A stretch of DNA of 42,069 nt, taken from positions 20,310 to 62,378 of the forward strand of contig NASX01000029.1 of the NCBI GenBank assembly GCA_002085155.1. The letters are read 5' to 3'. Origin of the DNA: Sorangiineae bacterium NIC37A_2 (lineage in GTDB: Bacteria > Myxococcota_A > Polyangia > Polyangiales > Polyangiaceae). How positions within the stretch are numbered: the first letter of the stretch is position 1; every line of letters starts with the position of its first letter. Below are positions 9,004 to 42,069 of this stretch, piece after piece. The position numbers and the translations under genes are program-made. Under the pieces are notes generated by a model. That model saw nothing but the letters and a program-made list of their open reading frames with translations. It searched no databases and was not told where the DNA came from.

Positions 9004-9429
9004 TCAGTCGGTCGGCGCGCGCCGCATCTTCTTGATCTCGCTTCGCCGATCTTTGGCCGCGAGGCGTCTCTCTCGAGAGGCGCGCGTCGGCTTCGTCTCT
9101 ACGCGCCGGCGAGGAGGAAAACGGATCTCGGCGAGGAGGGCGCCCAGCCGCACGAGGACGCGCTCGCGATTCATTTCCTGAGAGCGCGTCTCGTCCGCTG
9201 AGAGCACGAGCTCTCCGCTCTTCGTCACATAGCCGGAGAACTTCTCCCGGAGCCGGTTCTTCTGGCCCACGGTCAGAGCCTGACTCGTCTCGAACGCAAA
9301 GCGCAGGACAACCTTCGTCGAGACCTTGTTGACGTTCTGGCCGCCGGGACCGCTCGAGCGCACTGCGCTGAGCTCAATCTCCGACTCAGGGATCGAGATG
9401 CCTCCTAGCAAATAGCTCGCGCCGACCAT
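9004..9429 (-). CDS. arfB: Alternative ribosome-rescue factor B (GGQ peptidyl-tRNA hydrolase)
   Basis: A small class I release-factor-like protein that frees peptides from stalled ribosomes on truncated mRNA. The 141 residues match the family length (~140). The catalytic loop reads SSGPGGQNVNKVSTKV, with the GGQ that contacts the peptidyl-transferase centre. The C-terminus is the expected strongly basic tail (RRRVETKPTRASRERRL to the end) that enters the empty mRNA channel. The ATG at 9429 gives MVGASYLLGGISIPESEI, a normal start for the fold. It is convergent with the TPR gene and has a lipoprotein gene upstream on the same strand (24 bases between). Confidence 0.93.
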   Translation of the reverse strand: MVGASYLLGGISIPESEIELSAVRSSGPGGQNVNKVSTKVVLRFAFETSQALTVGQKNRLREKFSGYVTKSGELVLSADETRSQEMNRERVLVRLGALLAEIRFPPRRRVETKPTRASRERRLAAKDRRSEIKKMRRAPTD

Positions 9430-32401: not shown

Positions 32402-32582
32402 TCTAAGAAGCTAGCTACGCCTCGTGCTCGGGGAAACTCAGTCGAGATCCTTGGTGCGTGGCGGGATCGCCTCCGACCTCGGAGCACCTCCACGCCGCGC
32501 CTGCCACAAACTTCGATCTACGGCCGCTTCGCGGTCGTTCTTCCCTCTAGCCACGCCGAATGATTCCGATAGTTTGCAGGCG

Positions 32583-33329
32583 ATGAAATTCGCCGCTCTC
32601 TCCTCGACTCTTCTCCTTCTCTTTGGCGCAACCATCAGCGCCACCTCCCTCGTAGGCTGCGAAAGCGGCGATGACGGCGACGCAGGCCTCGGTGGCCTCG
32701 GCGGTAAGGGAGCGAGCCTCGGTGGCGATGGCAGCGGCGGCAAAGGGGACCCCAAGAACACGGGAGGCCTCGGCGGCGTGGGCTCCGGTTCGGGGGGCAA
32801 GTCGGGCTCCGGATCCGGTGGCAAAGCGAGCTCTTCGGGCGGCCAAAGTGCCTCGGGCGGCGGCTCCACGGATGAGACCGAAGAGTGCAACCTCCGCTAC
32901 AACGGCTGCGAAGTGCCCGCGAAGGTGCGCGAACTTGCCGGAACCTATTCGCTCACCGCCGACGTCGTCAACTCCTGCGGGGAGCTCGGCATCATCGTTC
33001 CTTCGGGGACCCTGACTGTCACCGGAACACTCACGATCGACGAAACCCCGATCGTACGTCTCGAGCTCGATGACCTCGATGGAACTCTCGCCATCTCTCC
33101 CGACGACGAGGGCTTCTTGCCCCGAGACTTCTCGGGCCCGAGCGCCAGCGGACGCTGGTACGCTTACGCCCGAGAAGGGGTAGAAAACGGGCTCGGCTAC
33201 GCGGAAGGATTCAATCTCCAGCTCAACGACGACCTCGAGTTCACAAACGTCGAGGACGGATCGTCTTCATACGCCGTCCGCGTCTATACGAAGCGCGGCT
33301 GCTCGATCGATTTTGCGCTCGTCGAGTGA
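32583..33329 (+). CDS. Lipoprotein with Gly/Ser linker and beta-rich domain
   Basis: A 248-residue lipoprotein starting MKFAALSSTLLLLFGATIS with lipobox LVGC. A Gly/Ser/Lys-rich tether (about residues 27-95) leads to a beta-rich C-terminal domain (VRELAGTYSLTADVVNSCGE, GTLTVTGTLTIDETPI) with four Cys. The upstream extension to 32424 has no signal-like start. The family is not recognised. A hairpin (GCGGCGGGG with CTCCGCCGC) follows at 33342-33367. Confidence 0.78.
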   Translation: MKFAALSSTLLLLFGATISATSLVGCESGDDGDAGLGGLGGKGASLGGDGSGGKGDPKNTGGLGGVGSGSGGKSGSGSGGKASSSGGQSASGGGSTDETEECNLRYNGCEVPAKVRELAGTYSLTADVVNSCGELGIIVPSGTLTVTGTLTIDETPIVRLELDDLDGTLAISPDDEGFLPRDFSGPSASGRWYAYAREGVENGLGYAEGFNLQLNDDLEFTNVEDGSSSYAVRVYTKRGCSIDFALVE

Positions 33330-33341
33330 TCTCTCCCGAGA

Positions 33342-33367
33342 GCGGCGGGGCGACAGGGCTCCGCCGC
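33342..33367. terminator. Hairpin between convergent genes
   Basis: The stem GCGGCGGGG/CTCCGCCGC has nine pairs with one G-U pair and a 8-base loop. It lies between the stops of two convergent genes. There is no T-run. Confidence 0.4.
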
Positions 33368-33401
33368 CTCGCGAACTCTCATTCAGATTCGTTCTCGCGC
33401 C

Positions 33402-34574
33402 TCAAAACCTCAATTTGAGTCCGAATTTCCACTGTTCGCTATGGGCGAGGCCTTTCTCCGGATCCGCGCCATTCGAGTAGTCGAAGCCGAGACCCGCCTC
33501 CTCGTCCTCAGTCTTGAGGAGATAATAATTCGCGCTGAGCCTCACGAGGGGGTGAAGCTCCTCGGAGGGATCGAGCTCGTCGTACAGATCGCCACGAAGC
33601 GCCAAGTCGCCGATCAGCTCGAAGCGATGTCCGAAGAACCGAGCCGCGGGATACAGCACCGCCTGCACCCGAGCGACACCTCGCGCTGTCGCACCCGTCG
33701 GCCCAGAGTCCTCCGCCGTAAGCACTTGCTCATATTCAGCTCCGATCCAGGGAAGGTACTGGAAGTCAGCGAACCAAAGATCGGTGAGACGATCCGGCTT
33801 CCAGACGGCCACGATATTCTTCCCAGGAGAGCCGCGAAAGATCGACATCAAGTTCAGAGAAGCCACGAGCCCATTGCCTCCCCTGACCCAATCTCGCTTG
33901 TACTGAGCCTTCCCAGCGACAACGAGACCCACGTAGGTTCTCTCGAGCGGAAATGGCAGCCATTCGAGCGCGAGACCCGCCTCGAGGACGCTCCGCTTCG
34001 CCGCGTCCGAGGTGTTCAGGTGGTATTCGACGGACGGCCCGAGGGCCATGCGATCCTGGAGGTCGAGTAACCCCGCCAAATCAATCATCAGCGCGGCATC
34101 GATGTGTCCGACGAGCGGCTCTCCTGACGTCTGTGAGAGTGAAGCGAAGGCGGGTTGAGGTGTGCGCCGGGTGTCCATCGAGTCCCTGAAGGTGAGCGCG
34201 TCGAAGAACGCCCTCAGAGAACTCTCGCGTCCTGCGTCGCTCTCCGCGGGCTCTGAGTCGCGCTCCGCGGCCTCCGGCTCGCTCGCTTCACTCGCCGTTT
34301 CGCTCCGAGGCTCCTTGGGCACCGTCGCCTCACTGTCCGACCCGCTCCCGTCCCGCTTCGCTGAGCTCTCCTCAGGCTCCTCGAGGCTTAATCGGCCTGG
34401 AGGCGTGCCCTCAAGATCTGCTGCGCTCCGTTCGCCACTCGACGTCTCCGAGGGCTCTGAGTCGCGCGCCTCACGCGCTCTCTCGCTCGGCGGCTCCGAA
34501 ATCGCTTCCGCTTGCGCCCTCCCAGACACCGCCAGAAAGGCCGCGATCGCTCCGAGACGACACCTCCAGGTCAC
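33402..34574 (-). CDS. Outer-membrane protein with acidic N-terminal segment
   Basis: A 390-residue exported protein starting with GTG at 34574 (TWRCRLGAIAAFLAVSGRAQA), a typical signal peptide. A segment of about 100 residues is rich in Ser and Glu (SEPSETSSGERSAADLEG, for example). The rest looks like a beta-barrel: SVEYHLNTSDAAKRSVLEAG, TYVGLVVAGKAQYKRDW, RFELIGDLALRG, and the C-terminal phenylalanine LKLRF typical of outer-membrane proteins. The GTG overlaps the stop of the upstream ACP-like gene as GTGA, so translation is likely coupled. Confidence 0.75.
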   Translation of the reverse strand: MTWRCRLGAIAAFLAVSGRAQAEAISEPPSERAREARDSEPSETSSGERSAADLEGTPPGRLSLEEPEESSAKRDGSGSDSEATVPKEPRSETASEASEPEAAERDSEPAESDAGRESSLRAFFDALTFRDSMDTRRTPQPAFASLSQTSGEPLVGHIDAALMIDLAGLLDLQDRMALGPSVEYHLNTSDAAKRSVLEAGLALEWLPFPLERTYVGLVVAGKAQYKRDWVRGGNGLVASLNLMSIFRGSPGKNIVAVWKPDRLTDLWFADFQYLPWIGAEYEQVLTAEDSGPTGATARGVARVQAVLYPAARFFGHRFELIGDLALRGDLYDELDPSEELHPLVRLSANYYLLKTEDEEAGLGFDYSNGADPEKGLAHSEQWKFGLKLRF

Positions 34575-34882
34575 TTTATCCCCGCCGCCTTCTTCACCAA
34601 GAAAACCGCATCGCCGACCTTCTTGAGCCGCTTGCATTCCCTCACGGAGATCTTCGCGTGCGGGTCATACTCCCGCGCGATCTTCTGTAGCCCGCGGGCG
34701 AGCGCCGCTTTCATGTAATCACCAAAGCCGAGCTCCTCTTTGAAGAGCTGGCTGTCGCGCACGCTCTCCTTCGGTAGGCCCCCAAGCGCCGCGATATGAG
34801 CGCGCACGTCATTCGCCAGCTGCTCTAGGTCTCTCCCACTCGCGACTTCCCCTCGTCGCCCTGCCGAACGCTCCCGAACCAT
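34571..34882 (-). CDS. Acyl-carrier-protein-like small protein, apparently without the phosphopantetheine serine
   Basis: A 103-residue protein. The helical layout resembles an ACP: LEQLANDVRAHIAALGG, then KESVRDSQLFKEELGFGDY, MKAALARGLQKIAREYD, and a C-terminal helix with Lys/Val. The LGxDSL site of true ACPs is replaced by LGFGDYMKA, so no Ser is available for the prosthetic group. A strong basic N-terminus (MVRERSAGRRGEV) precedes. Its stop overlaps the start of the outer-membrane protein. It might serve as a structural partner or an export-linked chaperone. Without a search the ACP relationship is uncertain. Confidence 0.6.
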   Translation of the reverse strand: MVRERSAGRRGEVASGRDLEQLANDVRAHIAALGGLPKESVRDSQLFKEELGFGDYMKAALARGLQKIAREYDPHAKISVRECKRLKKVGDAVFLVKKAAGIK

Positions 34883-35022
34883 CTCCCCTCCATTGTGCCT
34901 TCGGGATTCGCGCGCGATGGTCGGCTACGCGACGCATGCAACGCTCGTCCACTCATACCCAAATCGACTCCGACCACGAGACTACTCGAAAGATGATGCT
35001 AAGGTGCACCCCCAAGAGGGTC

Positions 35023-35406
35023 ATGAGAGGCAAGCTGATCGCGCTCGGGGCCGTTTTCATCTGGAGTTTCGTTGCGCCCGCCTGCGGCGGCAATGAGCCC
35101 TATTCGTCCGACAAGCCAGACCCCAAGACAGAGAGCGGAGGTACCTCCCCGCGGGGCCCCTGCCCCTCGCCTCTACCGGCCGAGCAATGCAGGTACCGAT
35201 GGGAATGCCGATCAGGTGCCTCCTGGGCGATGAAGAACCCCTTCGGCGAGAACTGTTATTGCAGGATGGAGCTGGTCGAAGAGTGCACATTCGGATGCAA
35301 TGAGGAGACAGGTCGATGCCTCGCGGGGGGCGCCGGAGGCGAGGCCGGCTCGACCGGCGTTGACGAAGGCCCCGGCGGAGAAGGCGGTGCGCCGGTAGGT
35401 TCATGA
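35023..35406 (+). CDS. Small Cys-rich lipoprotein
   Basis: A 127-residue lipoprotein starting MRGKLIALGAVFIWSFVA with the lipid Cys in APAC. The middle is Cys-rich (CPSPLPAEQCRYRWECRSG, CYCRMELVEECTFGC, GRC), which suggests a disulfide-stabilised domain. The end is Gly-rich. Upstream in-frame starts at 34936 and 34993 add residues without a signal and were not preferred. The family is not recognised. Confidence 0.65.
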   Translation: MRGKLIALGAVFIWSFVAPACGGNEPYSSDKPDPKTESGGTSPRGPCPSPLPAEQCRYRWECRSGASWAMKNPFGENCYCRMELVEECTFGCNEETGRCLAGGAGGEAGSTGVDEGPGGEGGAPVGS

Positions 35407-35408
35407 TC

Positions 35409-36026
35409 TCACGTCCCTCCGAACGTCTTCTTGTACTCGCTCGGGACGTCGAAGGGCGCGAATGCGCCTGCCATAGAGAGCGTGATGAGCAAAGCGAAGA
35501 GCGCACCTACCCCAAGCATCACGCTCAGCGCAGCTCGCGCGCCAAGGGGTTTCGAGCTCTCCAGCTGCCAATACAGCGCGCAGCCGAGGTGCGCGAAGAG
35601 AGAGACGACAGCCAGGAAGTAGTAAGGCGCGAAGAACCACTGGAACGGCGCAACGTGAAAGCCCGCCGCGGCGAAGTAGAAGTTCGTGTCGAGGCCGAAG
35701 ACAGCGCGCCCGAATAAGACCGCGCTCACGTGCACGACGAGAAAGAACGCTAGGTAGAGGCCCGAGGCCGCCTGCAGCCAGGCCACGCGACCCACGCGCT
35801 CCGACCAGCCGCGCACCGTGAGCCAGACGCCCGAGGTCGCCTGCAATGTGACGCAGGCGAGGAGCAGAGCTTCCACGACAGGCTGCCGATAGACGCGCCG
35901 CAGCGTGCTCATGACCACCATGTGCAGAGGCACGCCCCCGAGCGACGCGAGATGATTCGCGATGTGAAGGAGAGCGTAAACGGTGAGGACCAGAGCGGAA
36001 GCTCTGTGAAGCGCGCGGAGCTGCAT
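35409..36026 (-). CDS. Five-helix membrane protein, possibly cytochrome b-like
   Basis: A 205-residue integral membrane protein with five hydrophobic segments. A pair of His in the first helix (LLHIANH) and further His in VVHVSAVLFG and FAHLGCALYW suggest heme ligands, as in succinate dehydrogenase/fumarate reductase cytochrome b subunits. The length is also near that group. No catalytic subunit gene is adjacent, so a role in respiration is only inferred. Confidence 0.65.
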   Translation of the reverse strand: MQLRALHRASALVLTVYALLHIANHLASLGGVPLHMVVMSTLRRVYRQPVVEALLLACVTLQATSGVWLTVRGWSERVGRVAWLQAASGLYLAFFLVVHVSAVLFGRAVFGLDTNFYFAAAGFHVAPFQWFFAPYYFLAVVSLFAHLGCALYWQLESSKPLGARAALSVMLGVGALFALLITLSMAGAFAPFDVPSEYKKTFGGT

Positions 36027-36117
36027 GAGAACTCGTTTCGAAGGCGCCTATCTCATCCAGGCAAACCGCCCAAACGTGGCGCGGAAGCGGCCACCGCGGT
36101 CCGCTTTCACCGCAAGC

Positions 36118-36138
36118 GCCCCGCGGCGAGCGCGGGGC
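36118..36138. terminator. Hairpin downstream of the Cys-rich lipoprotein gene
   Basis: The stem GCCCCGCG (36118-36125) pairs with CGCGGGGC (36131-36138) across five bases. It is 25 bases past the stop of the minus-strand lipoprotein gene. There is no T-run, so this is weak. Confidence 0.4.
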
Positions 36139-36163
36139 ACTCGATTCCATTCCACAATTCGCC

Positions 36164-36727
36164 TCAGCGACAGCCCGTCTGCTGACAGCTCGGGGCGTTG
36201 AGCTCGGAGTTGATCGCTGTCCGCCGCGAGACCGTGAACTGAGAGCAGGTCACCGAGCGCAGATCGTCGAGGATATCGACTTGCTCCACGCCGCACGACT
36301 CAGCCAGCTCAACAGTCGTGTCACAGGTCGAATAGGCATACATCAGCGTGGCCGAGAGAGGATTGTCGCCATTGCACCCAGAGCGCATGGATTCCTTCTT
36401 GAGCCGATATTGCTGGTCTTTCGCCGCCAGGCACGCGGCCTCCGCGGAGGCACAGGTCGACTGCACCTCTGCGTCCGTGAGGCCGCCACCTGGTTCCGTG
36501 GTCTTGTTCTGAGCTTGCCAACGGCACCACTTCTCAGGCGTGTCGACGACGGAGAAGAAGTAGTCGACGAAGGCGTTGCACATCGCCTTCTTCTCACCGT
36601 GTCCGAGAGCAAGCGTGGATTTGCTCTGATCGACATTGGAGTGGCCGGTGGGGCCCTCGGATCCGCAGCCCAGAAAGGCGAGGGACAAGGTCACTTGAGC
36701 AGCAAAACGGCGCGAAAAACTCTTCAT
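36164..36727 (-). CDS. Cys-rich lipoprotein of unknown function
   Basis: A 187-residue lipoprotein starting MKSFSRRFAAQVTLSLAFL, with the lipid Cys at GC. Helical segments with many Cys follow (MCNAFVDYFFSVVDTPEKWC, TCASAEAACLAAKDQQYRL, SGCNGDN, TCDTT, SCGVEQ, TCSQF, SCQQTGCR). A purine-rich ribosome-site-like sequence (GAGAAGCTGAG) precedes the ATG. The family is not recognised. Confidence 0.75.
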   Translation of the reverse strand: MKSFSRRFAAQVTLSLAFLGCGSEGPTGHSNVDQSKSTLALGHGEKKAMCNAFVDYFFSVVDTPEKWCRWQAQNKTTEPGGGLTDAEVQSTCASAEAACLAAKDQQYRLKKESMRSGCNGDNPLSATLMYAYSTCDTTVELAESCGVEQVDILDDLRSVTCSQFTVSRRTAINSELNAPSCQQTGCR

Positions 36728-36848
36728 CTCAGCTTCTCTTTCTCTCAATTTTTTACCAGTTCCGCCGCTCGCCCTTGCTCAAAGGCGTCGCGGCGGGGGC
36801 ATCCAAGACTCTCGGAAAGGCAACGAGCCTTCGGCAAAAGATTTGTTC

Positions 36849-37034
36849 CTACTTCTCCACCGTGAGCCCAGTCAGACACATGGTTCCCGTTTGAGCGGCA
36901 CCGGACGCAATGATGTAGATGCCGACGTGATCGATCGTCGCCGCGGGGGGCAAGGCCTCCCCCAAGTCCCCCCAGCAGTCCGTTCTGAATGCTTCGTAGG
37001 ACAGCGCTTGACCCGAGGTCACCTCTCTCACGCA
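36849..37034 (-). pseudogene. 3' remainder of the Gly-rich lipoprotein gene after an in-frame TAA
   Basis: This segment continues the frame of the upstream lipoprotein gene after a single TAA at 37035-37037. It reads CVREVTSGQALSYEAFRTDCWGDL, shown here in parts: CVREVTSGQAL, YEAFRTDCWG, and the end AAQTGTMCLTGLTVEK. It has two further conserved-looking Cys. No frameshift is needed, since the frame is the same on both sides. A GTG at 37031 could restart translation but has no ribosome site of its own in view. Confidence 0.6.
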
Positions 37035-37880
37035 TTAGTCCGTGGATCCCGTCGATACGTAGGCGCGCATTTCACCGCCGAGTCCCGACGTAGTGAAGGT
37101 CGGCGTGATGGACTTGAAGCCGCCTGAATATCCGGTCTTCGTTCCATTCACTCTTTGCGCCACGTTAAAAGCAATGCCCGTCACTGGCTGAACGCCATTG
37201 TGAGGCTGCGTCGCGGGCATGGAGACGTCCATGCACAGCGATTCTTCAAAGCAGGGCCCGACTCCCTCGCCTATGCACGCAGGATCCACAGTGGCGTCGA
37301 AGTCTCGATTCCAGCCGTAGCCACAGAACATCCCGTTATCGACGTAGCCATCGGAGACAGTGAACTCCGACGCGGTGCAGAAATTCGTGCCGCCGGTCCC
37401 TCCACCGCCGCTCCCCGAGCCACCACCGCTACCGCCTTTTCCTCCACTGCCACTCCCAGAACCGCCGGATGGCGCCCCACCCGACGAAGTTCCGCCGGAT
37501 GGCGCCCCGCCCGACGAGGTTCCGCCGGTCTCCACCGCGCCGCCAGCGCCCTTCCCGCCGTCACCCTCGGGATCGCTACCTCCGGTCTCGCCAGGGTCCC
37601 CTCCCGTCTCCGAAGCGACCCCTCCTGACGAAGAGCCTCCAGCGTCCGCGCCGCCCGACGACTTTGCTCCACCTGTCGCCTTCGCGCCGCCCGTTCCTTT
37701 GGAGGACTTCTCCCCAGAAGCTGACTTTCCGCCGCTGCCTTCGGGGTCGTCTTCATCGACTTCATCGACTCCGCTCCCGCCCGTCCCATCGCGTCCGTCC
37801 GGAGCTAGGCCGGGGCTACACGATGACATGCTGATCAGAGCCGCTGGGACCCAGAGTCGGAGGACGCGACGCGTTTTCAA
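37035..37880 (-). CDS. Gly-rich lipoprotein, truncated by in-frame TAA
   Basis: A 281-residue product starting with TTG at 37880 (KTRRVLRLWVPAALISMSSC follows) and preceded by GAGGT. The lipid Cys follows MSS. A long Gly/Ser/Lys-rich linker (about residues 30-165) leads to a Cys-rich domain: NFCTASEF, GMFCGYGW, ACIGEGVGPC, SLCMDVS, and the strand FKSITPTFTTSGLGGEMRAYV. The stop comes at STGSTD, where the continuing frame reads C then VREVTSGQAL. The domain is thus cut in two, leaving an odd number of Cys before the stop and three after it. Confidence 0.7.
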   Translation of the reverse strand: MKTRRVLRLWVPAALISMSSCSPGLAPDGRDGTGGSGVDEVDEDDPEGSGGKSASGEKSSKGTGGAKATGGAKSSGGADAGGSSSGGVASETGGDPGETGGSDPEGDGGKGAGGAVETGGTSSGGAPSGGTSSGGAPSGGSGSGSGGKGGSGGGSGSGGGGTGGTNFCTASEFTVSDGYVDNGMFCGYGWNRDFDATVDPACIGEGVGPCFEESLCMDVSMPATQPHNGVQPVTGIAFNVAQRVNGTKTGYSGGFKSITPTFTTSGLGGEMRAYVSTGSTD

Positions 37881-37946
37881 AGCACCTCACATTACCAGCG
37901 GTCCGAGGGGCCCGGCAAACCCTCCTCAATGCAGGCCCGAACGGCC

Positions 37947-37977
37947 AAACGGGGCCGATCGATGACCGGCCCCGTTT
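37947..37977 (-). terminator. Strong hairpin after the diheme/FG-GAP lipoprotein gene
   Basis: The stem AAACGGGGCC (37947-37956) pairs perfectly with 37968-37977 across an 11-base loop. It lies 25 bases past the stop of the minus-strand gene, with a short T-stretch on either side. It can act as a terminator for that gene. Confidence 0.6.
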
Positions 37978-38001
37978 TCATGGTCACTTCCTGCGACGCC
38001 G

Positions 38002-40275
38002 TTACGGCTGCGCGAGACTCACGTAGACATCACCCGCGCTGCCCTTTGTGAAGAGGACAGCGTCTGCGCGGTGATCTGCGTTCACGTCACCGACGAGAGG
38101 CTTCTGACCGGAGGGGGAGAAGTTCGAGTGCCAGATGGTGCTGGCGGCGAACGAGCTACCCGTGGAGAGAGCCGCGTAAGCGGCGCCGCCCGGCACGAAC
38201 GTGATGATGTCGTCGAGGCCATCACCGTTGACGTCAGCGACGTCCACCTGCTCGCCCGGCAACCCGAACCACCCATTCCAGAGCGTCAGCGCACCAAAGC
38301 TCGAGCCATTCGAGAGCGCCACGTGCACATCCGCCGTCGAATCCATCGCGAAGACAACGACGTCATCGAAGCCATCCCCGTTGACATCACCGATCAGCGG
38401 GACCTTGCTCCCGGATGCGATATTTCCGTGCCAGAGCGCCGCGCCGCCGAACGAGGAGCCGTTCGAGAGCTGCACCAAAGCGTCATTCGTCGACCCCTTG
38501 GTGAAGATCACGATGTCGTCCTTCCTGTCGCCATTGAAGTCGCCGGTCAGGAAGATCTCGCCGCTCAGGACGTGCCCGTTCCAGTTCACCGCGTTCCCAA
38601 ACCCTGCGCCGCTCGAGAGCGCAACGTTCACTTGACCCGCGTTGTTCATGAGCGCCACCACGATGTCGTCCCTACCGTCGGCGTTGAAGTCGCCCACGCG
38701 AACCTGCTGCCCCGGGAGACCAAAGTTGCCGTGCCACACGCTCGACGCAGCGAAGGAGCTTCCGGTCGAGAGCGAAACCCAAACGTCCGCGCCGGCATCC
38801 ATGACGAAGGTGACGATGTCGACCCGACCGTCCGCGTTGAAGTCCCCAAGGAGAGGCGTCTCATTGTAGGGCGCGAACCAGTCATGCCACTTCGTCTTCG
38901 CGGACGCGAACTTCGAAGCCTTCGCCTTCGGGTTGCAATTCGAGGAGTTCGCAAAAACAGCGCGGTGCGCCGCGCTGAGCGGACTGATCGGCGGCATGCC
39001 TTGAGTCGGGAAGTTCGTCTTCGTCATGATATTGTCGTAAGACCAAAGAGCAACGCCACAATATCCGGCCGAATCCTCAAGGCGCGGGAAACGTCGTCCG
39101 GACGCCTTGTTATGGCATGCTGAGCACGGCTGGCCGCCCATCGTCGCCGAATAGGAGCCGAGACGATCGAGCTCCTTGCCAGGCCCCACGTTCTGAGGCC
39201 AGCTGGCCGCGACAATTGGTCGGACCCAGTTTTTGGCGGTGGTATTGGCCACGTCCAGCGCGGTGCGGGGATGAATGATGAAGGCGTTTTCGCCCGCGTG
39301 GCAGGAGGTGCAAACGCCTTGACCATTGGTCGCCAACGCGGCTCCGCCCACGATCTTGGCTGAAGTCGGGATGGTGACCTGCTCATTGATCCCGATCGCG
39401 GCGCCGCTCTTGTTGTCCCAGAAACACGAGCGGCTCGTCGTGGTGCCCTGACAAATAATCCCGTAAAGATAGAAGGTCTGCGAGGCCTTATTGGTCCGAC
39501 GCGGGAGCGCGATGCAAAGACCAGCCGGAGAAGCGCTCGTATATGTGAAGACCTCCGAGAGGCCGCCGACGTTATTCGGCGCAAGTGAGCACTTCCCGCT
39601 CACGCAGGCTCCACCGCCGTAGCATTGGTTGTCGTTAGCGCATGCGGCTCCCTGACGAACCCAGCTATTCGATGCGAGCGGCGGCGGATTCGGAACACCA
39701 GCTGCCGCACATTCGTTCCAGTAGGCTTGTCCTGAGTTGCTCGTTGCTAGCTTGAGCATGGGCGCGCCGTCGTCCGAGACCGCCGATGGACCTACACCCG
39801 TCTTATTGCGAAAGAACGCGCTCATGTCCTTGAGCACCGCGTTTTCTGGATCGACCGAACCGGCGATCAAGAAGTCGAGCTTGTCAGCCGCGTTGGAGAG
39901 GGCGACCTTCTCTGCTTCTACCGATCGAGCGGCGCCCTTTACCGGCGCTGCCGCTGCCTCCATCTCTTCGAAAACCGCCTGAACGTCAGGACCGGCGTCA
40001 AACAGGAGCTTCGCCGTGAGCTCCTTTTGGGCCTCGAGAACATTGGCGAGCGTCGCTTCTTTGCGCTGCCCGTCCGAGTAAAAGATCTGATCGTGTCCGA
40101 TAGCGATAGGATAAGCTTTCGGCGACGCTTTCACCGCCTCTTGAGAGGTCTCTCCTACGTCAATGCTCGAATCCTCGAGATCGAACTCCTCCGGCCCTTC
40201 AGAGCAGGCGATGACCGATGCGACGCCTATGCCCGCAATGAGCGCGCACAGACTCTTGTACTGTGATTTTTTCAT
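38002..40275 (-). CDS. Diheme cytochrome-like lipoprotein with FG-GAP repeats
   Basis: A 757-residue lipoprotein starting MKKSQYKSLCALIAGIGVAS, with lipobox VIAC. After an acidic region (residues 25-180) and a Cys cluster (CANDNQCYGGGACVSGKC, about 208-228), two c-type heme motifs appear: CTSCH near residue 322 and CSACH near 384. From about residue 475 six FG-GAP/VCBS-type repeats form a beta-propeller-like region: DFNADGRVDIV, DFNADGRDDIV, DFNGDRKDDIV, DVNGDGFDDVV, DVNGDGLDDII and DVNADHRADAV. Such repeats bind calcium in integrin-like folds. An AAGGGGAATC ribosome site precedes the ATG. The role is probably extracellular electron transfer or binding, which is inferred. Confidence 0.8.
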   Translation of the reverse strand: MKKSQYKSLCALIAGIGVASVIACSEGPEEFDLEDSSIDVGETSQEAVKASPKAYPIAIGHDQIFYSDGQRKEATLANVLEAQKELTAKLLFDAGPDVQAVFEEMEAAAAPVKGAARSVEAEKVALSNAADKLDFLIAGSVDPENAVLKDMSAFFRNKTGVGPSAVSDDGAPMLKLATSNSGQAYWNECAAAGVPNPPPLASNSWVRQGAACANDNQCYGGGACVSGKCSLAPNNVGGLSEVFTYTSASPAGLCIALPRRTNKASQTFYLYGIICQGTTTSRSCFWDNKSGAAIGINEQVTIPTSAKIVGGAALATNGQGVCTSCHAGENAFIIHPRTALDVANTTAKNWVRPIVAASWPQNVGPGKELDRLGSYSATMGGQPCSACHNKASGRRFPRLEDSAGYCGVALWSYDNIMTKTNFPTQGMPPISPLSAAHRAVFANSSNCNPKAKASKFASAKTKWHDWFAPYNETPLLGDFNADGRVDIVTFVMDAGADVWVSLSTGSSFAASSVWHGNFGLPGQQVRVGDFNADGRDDIVVALMNNAGQVNVALSSGAGFGNAVNWNGHVLSGEIFLTGDFNGDRKDDIVIFTKGSTNDALVQLSNGSSFGGAALWHGNIASGSKVPLIGDVNGDGFDDVVVFAMDSTADVHVALSNGSSFGALTLWNGWFGLPGEQVDVADVNGDGLDDIITFVPGGAAYAALSTGSSFAASTIWHSNFSPSGQKPLVGDVNADHRADAVLFTKGSAGDVYVSLAQP

Positions 40276-40573
40276 GATTCCCCTTTTCTCTTAGGCGCTG
40301 CTTCTCCCTTGGATCACCTCACGATTGTCATCGTGTGTGCTCCTCATGAGCGCCGGGCCACCGTCCCGTGCGCGCAACTTGGCGGTCAACTGGCTCAGGG
40401 GCCTGGCCGTTTTTAGCTCTCAGAAAGAGCTCGCATCAGTCTCAATCAGTCTTGAGAATCCCGCGTGACCCTGGAAGGCCCGACACGCAAACCTCAAGCG
40501 CCCTTGAGGTTCATGGACGTGACCCTAGTGACCTCACCCGCCGGGGGCCCGACCTTGAGCGCGCCATTTCGGC
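40276..40573. promoter_or_regulatory. Divergent promoter region with inverted repeats
   Basis: Short hairpins cluster here: TCTCAA with TTGAGA (40439-40456 area), and ACCTCAAG (40491-40498) with CTTGAGGT (40503-40510) around a four-base loop. CTTGAG recurs at about 40554, close to the start of the plus-strand lipoprotein gene. The pattern is compatible with an operator. Confidence 0.4.
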
Positions 40574-41689
40574 ATGACGAAATTCTCCCGGTCTCAATCC
40601 CTGTTAGCCACTCTATTTCTTCACGCGCTGCTCACCCCCGCCTGCTCTTCAGGCCCTGGCGAAAGCGATGGACCCGCCGAGCAAGACCCTGCCGCTTCCG
40701 TTTCCGACCCCCTCGAGAGTCCCGGCAACGACGCCAAACCGAACGACGCGGACCAGGCGAACCAGGCGGACCAAGCGGACCAAGCGGACCAAGCAGGCGC
40801 ACCGAAATCCCTCTGTCCCCAGCCCACCCGCGTGGAGGAAGACATTGAGGTACCGGGCTTCGTGTCGCCGTCCTTTCGCTACAAGGCGATTGACTACACC
40901 CTCGAAAGCGCCATCACGCACCGAACCACTGTCTGCAAAGATGAAAAGATTGATGTCACTGAGGTGCTCGTGCTCCATGGCACCGCGACCAATCGAATTG
41001 CGCAAACTCTCGAGCTCGATCTCGATCTGCGGCTGGCACTGTCGGATGGCGCGAGGCTCTCCGGCACCAAAGAAGCAATCAGGTCGTTACCTCCCGAAGG
41101 GACAGCCGACTTCACATTCCAATTCAAACTTCCGAGCGAAGTCAGCCTAGCGGGAGCGAAGATCGAACCCAAGAGCTCAAGCGACGCCGGTGAACATCAT
41201 CGCGTCTCGATCCCTCTCGACACAGTCTTCAATCCCCCGTATCCGATTGTGATCGAGGAGCTGGCAACGCTTGAGGCAAAGACGTTGAGTGAGGATTCCC
41301 GCGATCAATGGAGCATTAAAGTGCTCAGCGCGACCGTAACCTTGGACACAGACTACGACGGCGGAGAGCACGCGCCCTACGGAAAGAAGTACATCGAGCT
41401 GATCGTCGACGCACACTTGCTCGCTACGAGCGTCAACAGCCTATTTTCGTACAACACCTTTGAGCTGAACGTTGGTGGCTTCTCCGTCTACGCGTCCGTC
41501 GAAGGAGGTGTCTTGCAGAAGAACCAACGCGAGACGAATATCATCCTCTTCGAAGTCGATGAAGACGTCACCGAGTTCGACTTCATCTACGACTTGGATA
41601 GTATCTATTCAGCTAACGATTCTCCTGACTACGGGACGACTCAAAGGACGATCTCGGTTCGGCTACCGACGCCAGCAACAGGCGAGTAA
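40574..41689 (+). CDS. Lipoprotein with Gln/Asp repeat and beta-rich domains
   Basis: A 371-residue lipoprotein starting MTKFSRSQSLLATLFLHALL with the lipid Cys in TPAC. A linker with the 3-residue repeat QAD/QAN (40750-40797) follows, encoded by near-identical 9-base units. The rest is beta-rich: RYKAIDYTLESAITHRTTVC, LVLHGTATNRIAQTLELDLD, HRVSIPLDTVFNPPYPIVIE. The end NIILFEVDEDVTEFDFIYDL is acidic. The family is not recognised, although the alternation of strands would fit an immunoglobulin-like or adhesin-like domain. Confidence 0.75.
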   Translation: MTKFSRSQSLLATLFLHALLTPACSSGPGESDGPAEQDPAASVSDPLESPGNDAKPNDADQANQADQADQADQAGAPKSLCPQPTRVEEDIEVPGFVSPSFRYKAIDYTLESAITHRTTVCKDEKIDVTEVLVLHGTATNRIAQTLELDLDLRLALSDGARLSGTKEAIRSLPPEGTADFTFQFKLPSEVSLAGAKIEPKSSSDAGEHHRVSIPLDTVFNPPYPIVIEELATLEAKTLSEDSRDQWSIKVLSATVTLDTDYDGGEHAPYGKKYIELIVDAHLLATSVNSLFSYNTFELNVGGFSVYASVEGGVLQKNQRETNIILFEVDEDVTEFDFIYDLDSIYSANDSPDYGTTQRTISVRLPTPATGE

Positions 41690-42069
41690 CGGTAGCCCAA
41701 GGGGCAGACTGCCGGCGCTCATCTCCCGCAGGGAATGTGAGCGCCGCAGGACTATTCGGACGCGTTCACTGCCTGTCACGTTCGTCCGACGCACTAGCTG
41801 ACCGGCGGGGCACCCGAACCCCCTCCCAACTTACGCCCAAGGTCGCCTGAGCGCGCTGAGTGACTCCGTCGCGAGTGAGCTCTTACAAACAGTCCTGGAA
41901 GCGTCGCCGGCATCGACGGAATCATCGCTCTCGACCGGCTGGGCTTGGAGAAGGTTTACGCCGGTCGACTGGACCTGATCCGATTTTCCGGACAGGTTGT
42001 TAAGCACTATGCCGCAAGGCGCGGCTTCTCACAAGTTTCAAATGCCACTGGGCTCAGGTAGCCGAGCGC
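41690..42069 (+). other. Right-end stretch with possible frameshifted gene remnant
   Basis: No intact gene is seen. Two plus-strand frames read protein-like and would join at about 41895-41905: NPLPTYAQGRLSALSDSVAS with ELLQTVLEAS, and then VAGIDGIIALDRLGLEKVY followed by AGRLDLIRFSGQVVKHYAA, ending RRGFSQVSNATGLR before a TAG at 42059. This fits a decayed gene with one frameshift, whose identity I cannot name. Confidence 0.35.

Follow-up and report, generated by a model that had tools for sequence, protein, structure and literature searches.

Recent pseudogenes of bacteria, in which a gene has been inactivated by a nonsense change, present a single in-frame stop, an intact paralogue and homologues that are unbroken. 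In-frame stops amid purifying selection have also been argued to be widespread in prokaryotes, and many of them are thought by the same authors to be short-lived, according to the portion of that report available to us (Belinky et al., 2021; PMC7918605). In an E. coli reporter library, TAA was the least leaky stop: in rich medium, the mean signal at each of four temperatures was 0.01–0.05% of the wild-type level, and readthrough peptides were detected for 0.23% of TAA genes (PMC11126739, from the part of the text consulted).

Here we describe a stop of this kind in the window, by which we mean the whole 42,069-nucleotide stretch of DNA from Sorangiineae bacterium NIC37A_2 that was analysed; it lies within contig C148 of an assembly of 5,001,757 bases in 150 contigs. 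The interrupted gene shares the single in-frame stop, the intact paralogue and the unbroken homologues with recent pseudogenes and shows no difference in kind from them, its stop being known from the assembly consensus alone. With the stops of Belinky et al. (2021; PMC7918605) it shares an intact coding sequence flanking one internal stop; as far as the available part of that article goes, the published case rests on dN/dS over related genomes, whereas for the window gene no orthologue was found on which selection could be tested.

A lipoprotein-like gene interrupted by one in-frame TAA

The disrupted frame occupies positions 36849–37880 of the minus strand: it starts at a TTG (37878–37880), ends at a TAG (36849–36851) and spans 343 codons, with a TAA at 37035–37037 as its sole interruption. 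A preliminary description of this DNA had reported the same frame on both sides of the TAA, which we confirm and place on the minus strand, the strand having been absent from that account. The first 21 residues (37818–37880) comprise a hydrophobic start and a lipobox-like MSSC (residues 18–21), which by eye and from general knowledge we take to be a putative lipoprotein signal, with Cys-21 as the candidate lipid-bearing residue. A low-complexity linker rich in Gly, Ser, Thr and Pro follows (residues 22–165; 37386–37817), and beyond it lies a domain resembling carbohydrate-binding modules (CBMs). The first two thirds of this domain (116 residues; 37038–37385), delineated by homology, alignment and a fold model, precede the stop, and its last third (61 residues, three of them Cys; 36852–37034), recognized by homology, a profile test and the fold model, comes after it.

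Past the TAA, 61 codons run in the same frame to the TAG. The first of them is TGC, so that a cysteine stands directly after the stop, in agreement with the earlier reading STD-stop-CVREVTSGQAL. The count of 60 downstream codons that accompanied this reading holds for the frame in the ORF list that opens at a GTG one codon past the stop (36849–37031, minus strand; 60 amino acids), and not for the whole downstream piece. The cysteine tally stands as given: the candidate lipid cysteine is followed by five cysteines before the stop (168, 186, 202, 210 and 216) and three after it (283, 302 and 335). A scan of 36700–38100 for promoters and terminators returned nothing, and a Pfam scan of the read-through protein gave no match.

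Homologues carry an aromatic residue at the stop position

We searched for relatives using the domain with an X at the stop position, and within the organism's own genome this query matched the window copy and one other locus, L002 on contig C51. L002 is an intact paralogue that aligns across the stop at 43% identity; its sequence at this point is NTDYC, against STD-stop-C in the window, with TAT (Tyr) as the codon at the column. In three homologues from other genomes this column is occupied by Tyr (TAC), Trp (TGG) and Tyr (TAC), and the four homologues, all free of stops, align across the TAA at 24–43% identity. From their sequences, we consider that the homology through the stop is not a matter of chance. 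When duplicate sequences were removed, 34 distinct stretches from 34 loci, a subset of the 76 matches found across the order (see below), showed Trp at the column in 23 cases, Tyr in 10 and the stop in the window alone, and the next residue was Cys in all 34; these stretches are not all independent, because several derive from one multi-domain protein. The preliminary description had suggested a one-base change from a Tyr codon and an alignment with homologues to see which residue belongs here. Since that residue is Tyr or Trp, an origin from a sense codon is supported.

Profiles extended the family and showed how rare internal stops are within it. Up to 18 candidates per genome were scored in the order and up to 9 in the phylum, which makes the following counts lower bounds. 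A five-sequence profile run over 183 genomes of the order gave at least 76 matches in 21 genomes, and a 33-sequence profile run at E 1e-10 over a phylum-wide sample matched 7 of 377 genomes, at a minimum of 19 places. The organism's own genome holds further distant copies, with at least four matches to the order-wide and at least seven to the phylum-wide profile, the window copy included. Among the 76 order-wide matches listed, 74 are without an internal stop; the two exceptions are the window copy (TAA) and G002:C413 (TGA). Homologues ending at the same stop, an outcome that the preliminary description had named as one that would change the picture, do not appear among the listed order-wide matches: none of the other 75 has a TAA inside. 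In the phylum-wide matches listed, the window copy alone has an internal stop. G002:C413 (locus L023) comes from a genome of the same genus and is a second domain copy with Tyr at the column; it is apparently frameshifted, because the sequence preceding the match continues in a different frame; this preceding piece falls below significance alone and was judged by eye. The 33-row alignment used below (A2) consists of rows that we selected from the loci, and it left out L023 and those order-wide matches that have no locus.

Predicted fold and family of the domain

The domain family is a more useful observation than the stop codon itself. AlphaFold2, run on the 33-row alignment with the TAA of the window read as Tyr, predicted a beta-sandwich (pLDDT 92.5, pTM 0.87). 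In this model the stop falls at domain residue 117, within a strand formed by residues 116–120, and two more strands (153–159 and 165–177) follow. A domain boundary at the stop was considered and rejected, as the model shows one continuous fold. Together with the four homologues that align through the stop position, this bears out the earlier suggestion that the downstream codons are the rest of the same domain.

Comparison with known structures pointed to CBMs, with one conspicuous exception. The top rows of a Foldseek search included CBM11 (E about 2e-4), ranked after a complex I assembly factor (E 5e-5). VIA-align gave Z scores of 10.5 for the CBM of a mannanase (1wky), 9.3 for CBM27, 9.2 for CBM28 and 9.1 for CBM11, and 10.6 for 7zkq, a complex I assembly factor and thus a non-CBM chain. 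The fold matches to 7zkp and 7zkq, whose Z equals that of the best CBM chains, were not taken as support; because 7zkq scores as high, the fold alone is no proof of function. The likeness to the CBM structures (CBM27 1of3, CBM28 3acf, CBM11 1v0a and the 1wky CBM) extends over nearly the whole domain, with rmsd values of 2.6–3.4 Å, Z scores of 9.1–10.5 and 123–140 residues aligned, at a sequence identity of just 9–16%. Unlike these known CBMs, the domain has no Pfam match above chance and has four cysteines that recur in 30–32 of 32 homologues.

Pfam scans of ten relatives, which were picked for their long frames and not at random, found GH12 in five (L012, L013, L024, L025 and L028), GH45 in two (L015 and L032) and GH30 in one (L011), all as fusions; of the remaining two, one had Stig1-like repeats only and one nothing. 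A gene with a GH45 match (6e-26) is found close to the paralogue L002, in the same orientation; neither L002 nor L003 has a Pfam match itself. GH12 and GH45 are counted among the cellulase-specific families in a survey of myxobacterial CAZymes, in the part of it at hand (PMC12093494). The fold likeness, the glycoside hydrolase fusions, the GH45 neighbour and this survey together make a carbohydrate-binding role likely for the domain, and suggest polysaccharide as the probable ligand.

Whether these proteins make up a CBM family of their own is a more tentative matter, and we put it at somewhat under an even chance. Such a family would be found mainly in the order of the window, as stand-alone lipoproteins and with GH12, GH45 and GH30 partners, and its Trp/Tyr-Cys pair would lie in the fold core or on the binding face. 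We call it uncatalogued with reference to Pfam and NCBIfam, neither of which has a model dedicated to it. Across the 33 members, Pfam matches reached E values of 0.04–0.07 only, each in a single member, and NCBIfam gave one weak match to a lectin (E 1.2e-4), in one member. Sequence searches of the PDB with two profiles had best E values of 0.049 (a lectin) and 0.24, and a literature search found no paper in which the wording 'novel carbohydrate-binding module family' is combined with a mention of GH45 or of myxobacteria. If binding were shown, a CBM-like module with enzyme partners would allow better annotation of how these bacteria degrade polysaccharides.

No clear decay downstream of the stop

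To judge the state of the downstream piece, we compared it with the 32 homologues. Six columns past the stop are conserved in at least 85% of them, and the window keeps all six; before the stop, it departs at two of six such columns (G54 to V and G72 to A). Scored against leave-one-out profiles, the downstream part of the window copy reached 0.86 of its upstream score, within the range of 0.58–1.44 spanned by the 32 others. The absolute scores of the window are low in both parts, with just two of the 32 scoring lower in each, which marks this copy as divergent upstream and downstream of the stop alike. The sequence may thus have been diverging before the stop arose, or apart from it. Identity to L002 is 53/113 (47%) before the stop and 21/59 (36%) after it, a nominal difference pointing the way that decay would; overall, no clear decay is seen past the stop. 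This is what a recent event would leave behind, and it is expected equally of readthrough or of a base-call error.

A drift simulation with indels, a simple model of our own making in which a piece survives if it has no stop, keeps the six conserved residues and suffers no frameshift, left such a piece in 53%, 20% and 4% of runs at divergences of 2%, 5% and 10%, respectively. From these survival rates, a stop in a gene free of constraint would be fairly recent. Two other genomes of the genus gave no DNA match over 32424–42069, nor did the single protein match anything in them at E 0.001; profiles detected more distant family members there. A contig search that used the 116 residues upstream of the stop returned 43 pattern matches, with no relative among them, in a collection from which near-identical genomes may be left out. 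These comparisons yielded no second assembly of the species and no orthologue close enough for dating the event or for measuring selection.

Origin of the stop

We think it likely that a gene with a C-terminal CBM-like beta-sandwich was inactivated by a recent single nonsense change, to TAA, at a conserved aromatic position. The ancestral gene would have encoded a lipoprotein-like protein ending in this domain, and one recent change would have turned a sense codon at the aromatic position into TAA. Translation would then stop after residue 281, and the truncated product would lack the final strands of the sandwich along with three conserved cysteines. The stop removes the last 62 residues of the domain, including an FxTxCW stretch and three of the four cysteines found in 30–32 of the 32 homologues. 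Because these strands and cysteines are lost, the domain should not fold, and the truncated protein is, judging from the model, most likely non-functional. An in-frame stop inside a domain that is entire in homologues is a mark of a pseudogene, and it is found here. We infer that the organism itself carries this base and that the change happened recently.

Programmed or tolerated readthrough of the UAA, by which some full-length protein would be made, fits the intact coding sequence downstream, and the selected in-frame stops argued to be widespread in prokaryotes offer a precedent (PMC7918605, in the portion available). The translation machinery and the RNA nevertheless make it very improbable. 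Both RF1 and RF2 are encoded, each above its curated cut-off, and no anticodon for UAA, UAG or UGA occurs among 45 genomic tRNA matches read by ARAGORN, from an assembly that is about 98% complete; a stop-codon reassignment or a suppressor tRNA was rejected on these two grounds. The 100 bases past the stop fold no better than shuffled sequence (z 0.69, with 150 of 200 shuffles equalling or exceeding it in stability), and a readthrough-stimulating RNA structure was rejected as well. UAA is, moreover, the least leaky stop in the E. coli reporter (PMC11126739, in the part consulted), and this stop position is common to no other match listed, the comparison being with distant homologues only. The programmed readthrough put forward in the preliminary description thus goes unsupported by release factors, tRNAs, RNA folding or data on the leakiness of UAA.

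The main rival to recent inactivation is an error of assembly or consensus, or a minority strain variant that entered the consensus, with the gene intact in most cells. The genome is a draft (150 contigs, 97.99% complete, 3.12% contamination), the contig end that bounds the window shares 100–103 bases with three other contigs, and the sequence past the stop has decayed little, if at all, all of which would agree with such an error; isolated substitution errors in consensus sequences are uncommon, and we consider this rival unlikely, if well ahead of readthrough. Least probable of all is that the stop is a functional end and that the truncated lipoprotein works, alone or with a re-initiated 60-residue piece. 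The GTG one codon past the stop could open that piece, and an ATG overlapping the stop (TAATG) opens a 96-amino-acid frame out of register. Against this, the stop falls within a beta-strand of what is predicted to be one single domain and deprives the protein of invariant Cys, the re-initiated piece starts inside the domain and has no signal peptide by eye, which makes a functional role for it unlikely, and none of the 75 other matches listed ends here with a TAA. Of the three origins offered earlier, a nonsense mutation, an assembly error or programmed readthrough, we favour the recent nonsense mutation. The stop is most likely an ordinary loss-of-function mutation and not a departure from the usual reading of the genetic code. 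As such it is an everyday event, of interest mainly for annotation, where the locus should be entered as one disrupted gene and neither as two genes nor as a case of recoding.

Neighbouring genes and contig end

Upstream of the broken gene and on the same strand, positions 38002–40275 (minus strand) encode a 757-amino-acid protein that has FG-GAP repeats in the part towards the C-terminus and whose middle gives weak cytochrome/CXXCH matches. It was tried as a synteny anchor and set aside, as its matches lie in the repeat part only. Two small, Cys-rich, lipoprotein-like frames lie near the broken gene, at 34936–35406 (plus strand) and 36164–36748 (minus strand), and neither has a Pfam match above the cut-off. 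At the far end of the window, the last 100–103 bases of C148 (41967–42069) recur at 99–100% identity in contigs C79, C62 and C37, forming the first bases of C79; because these bases recur in three other contigs, C148 seems to end at a repeat. Elsewhere in the window, a 141-amino-acid protein encoded at 9004–9429 (minus strand) has an RF-1 domain (Pfam 5.6e-20) with a GGQ motif, and is similar in size to the ribosome-rescue hydrolase ArfB.
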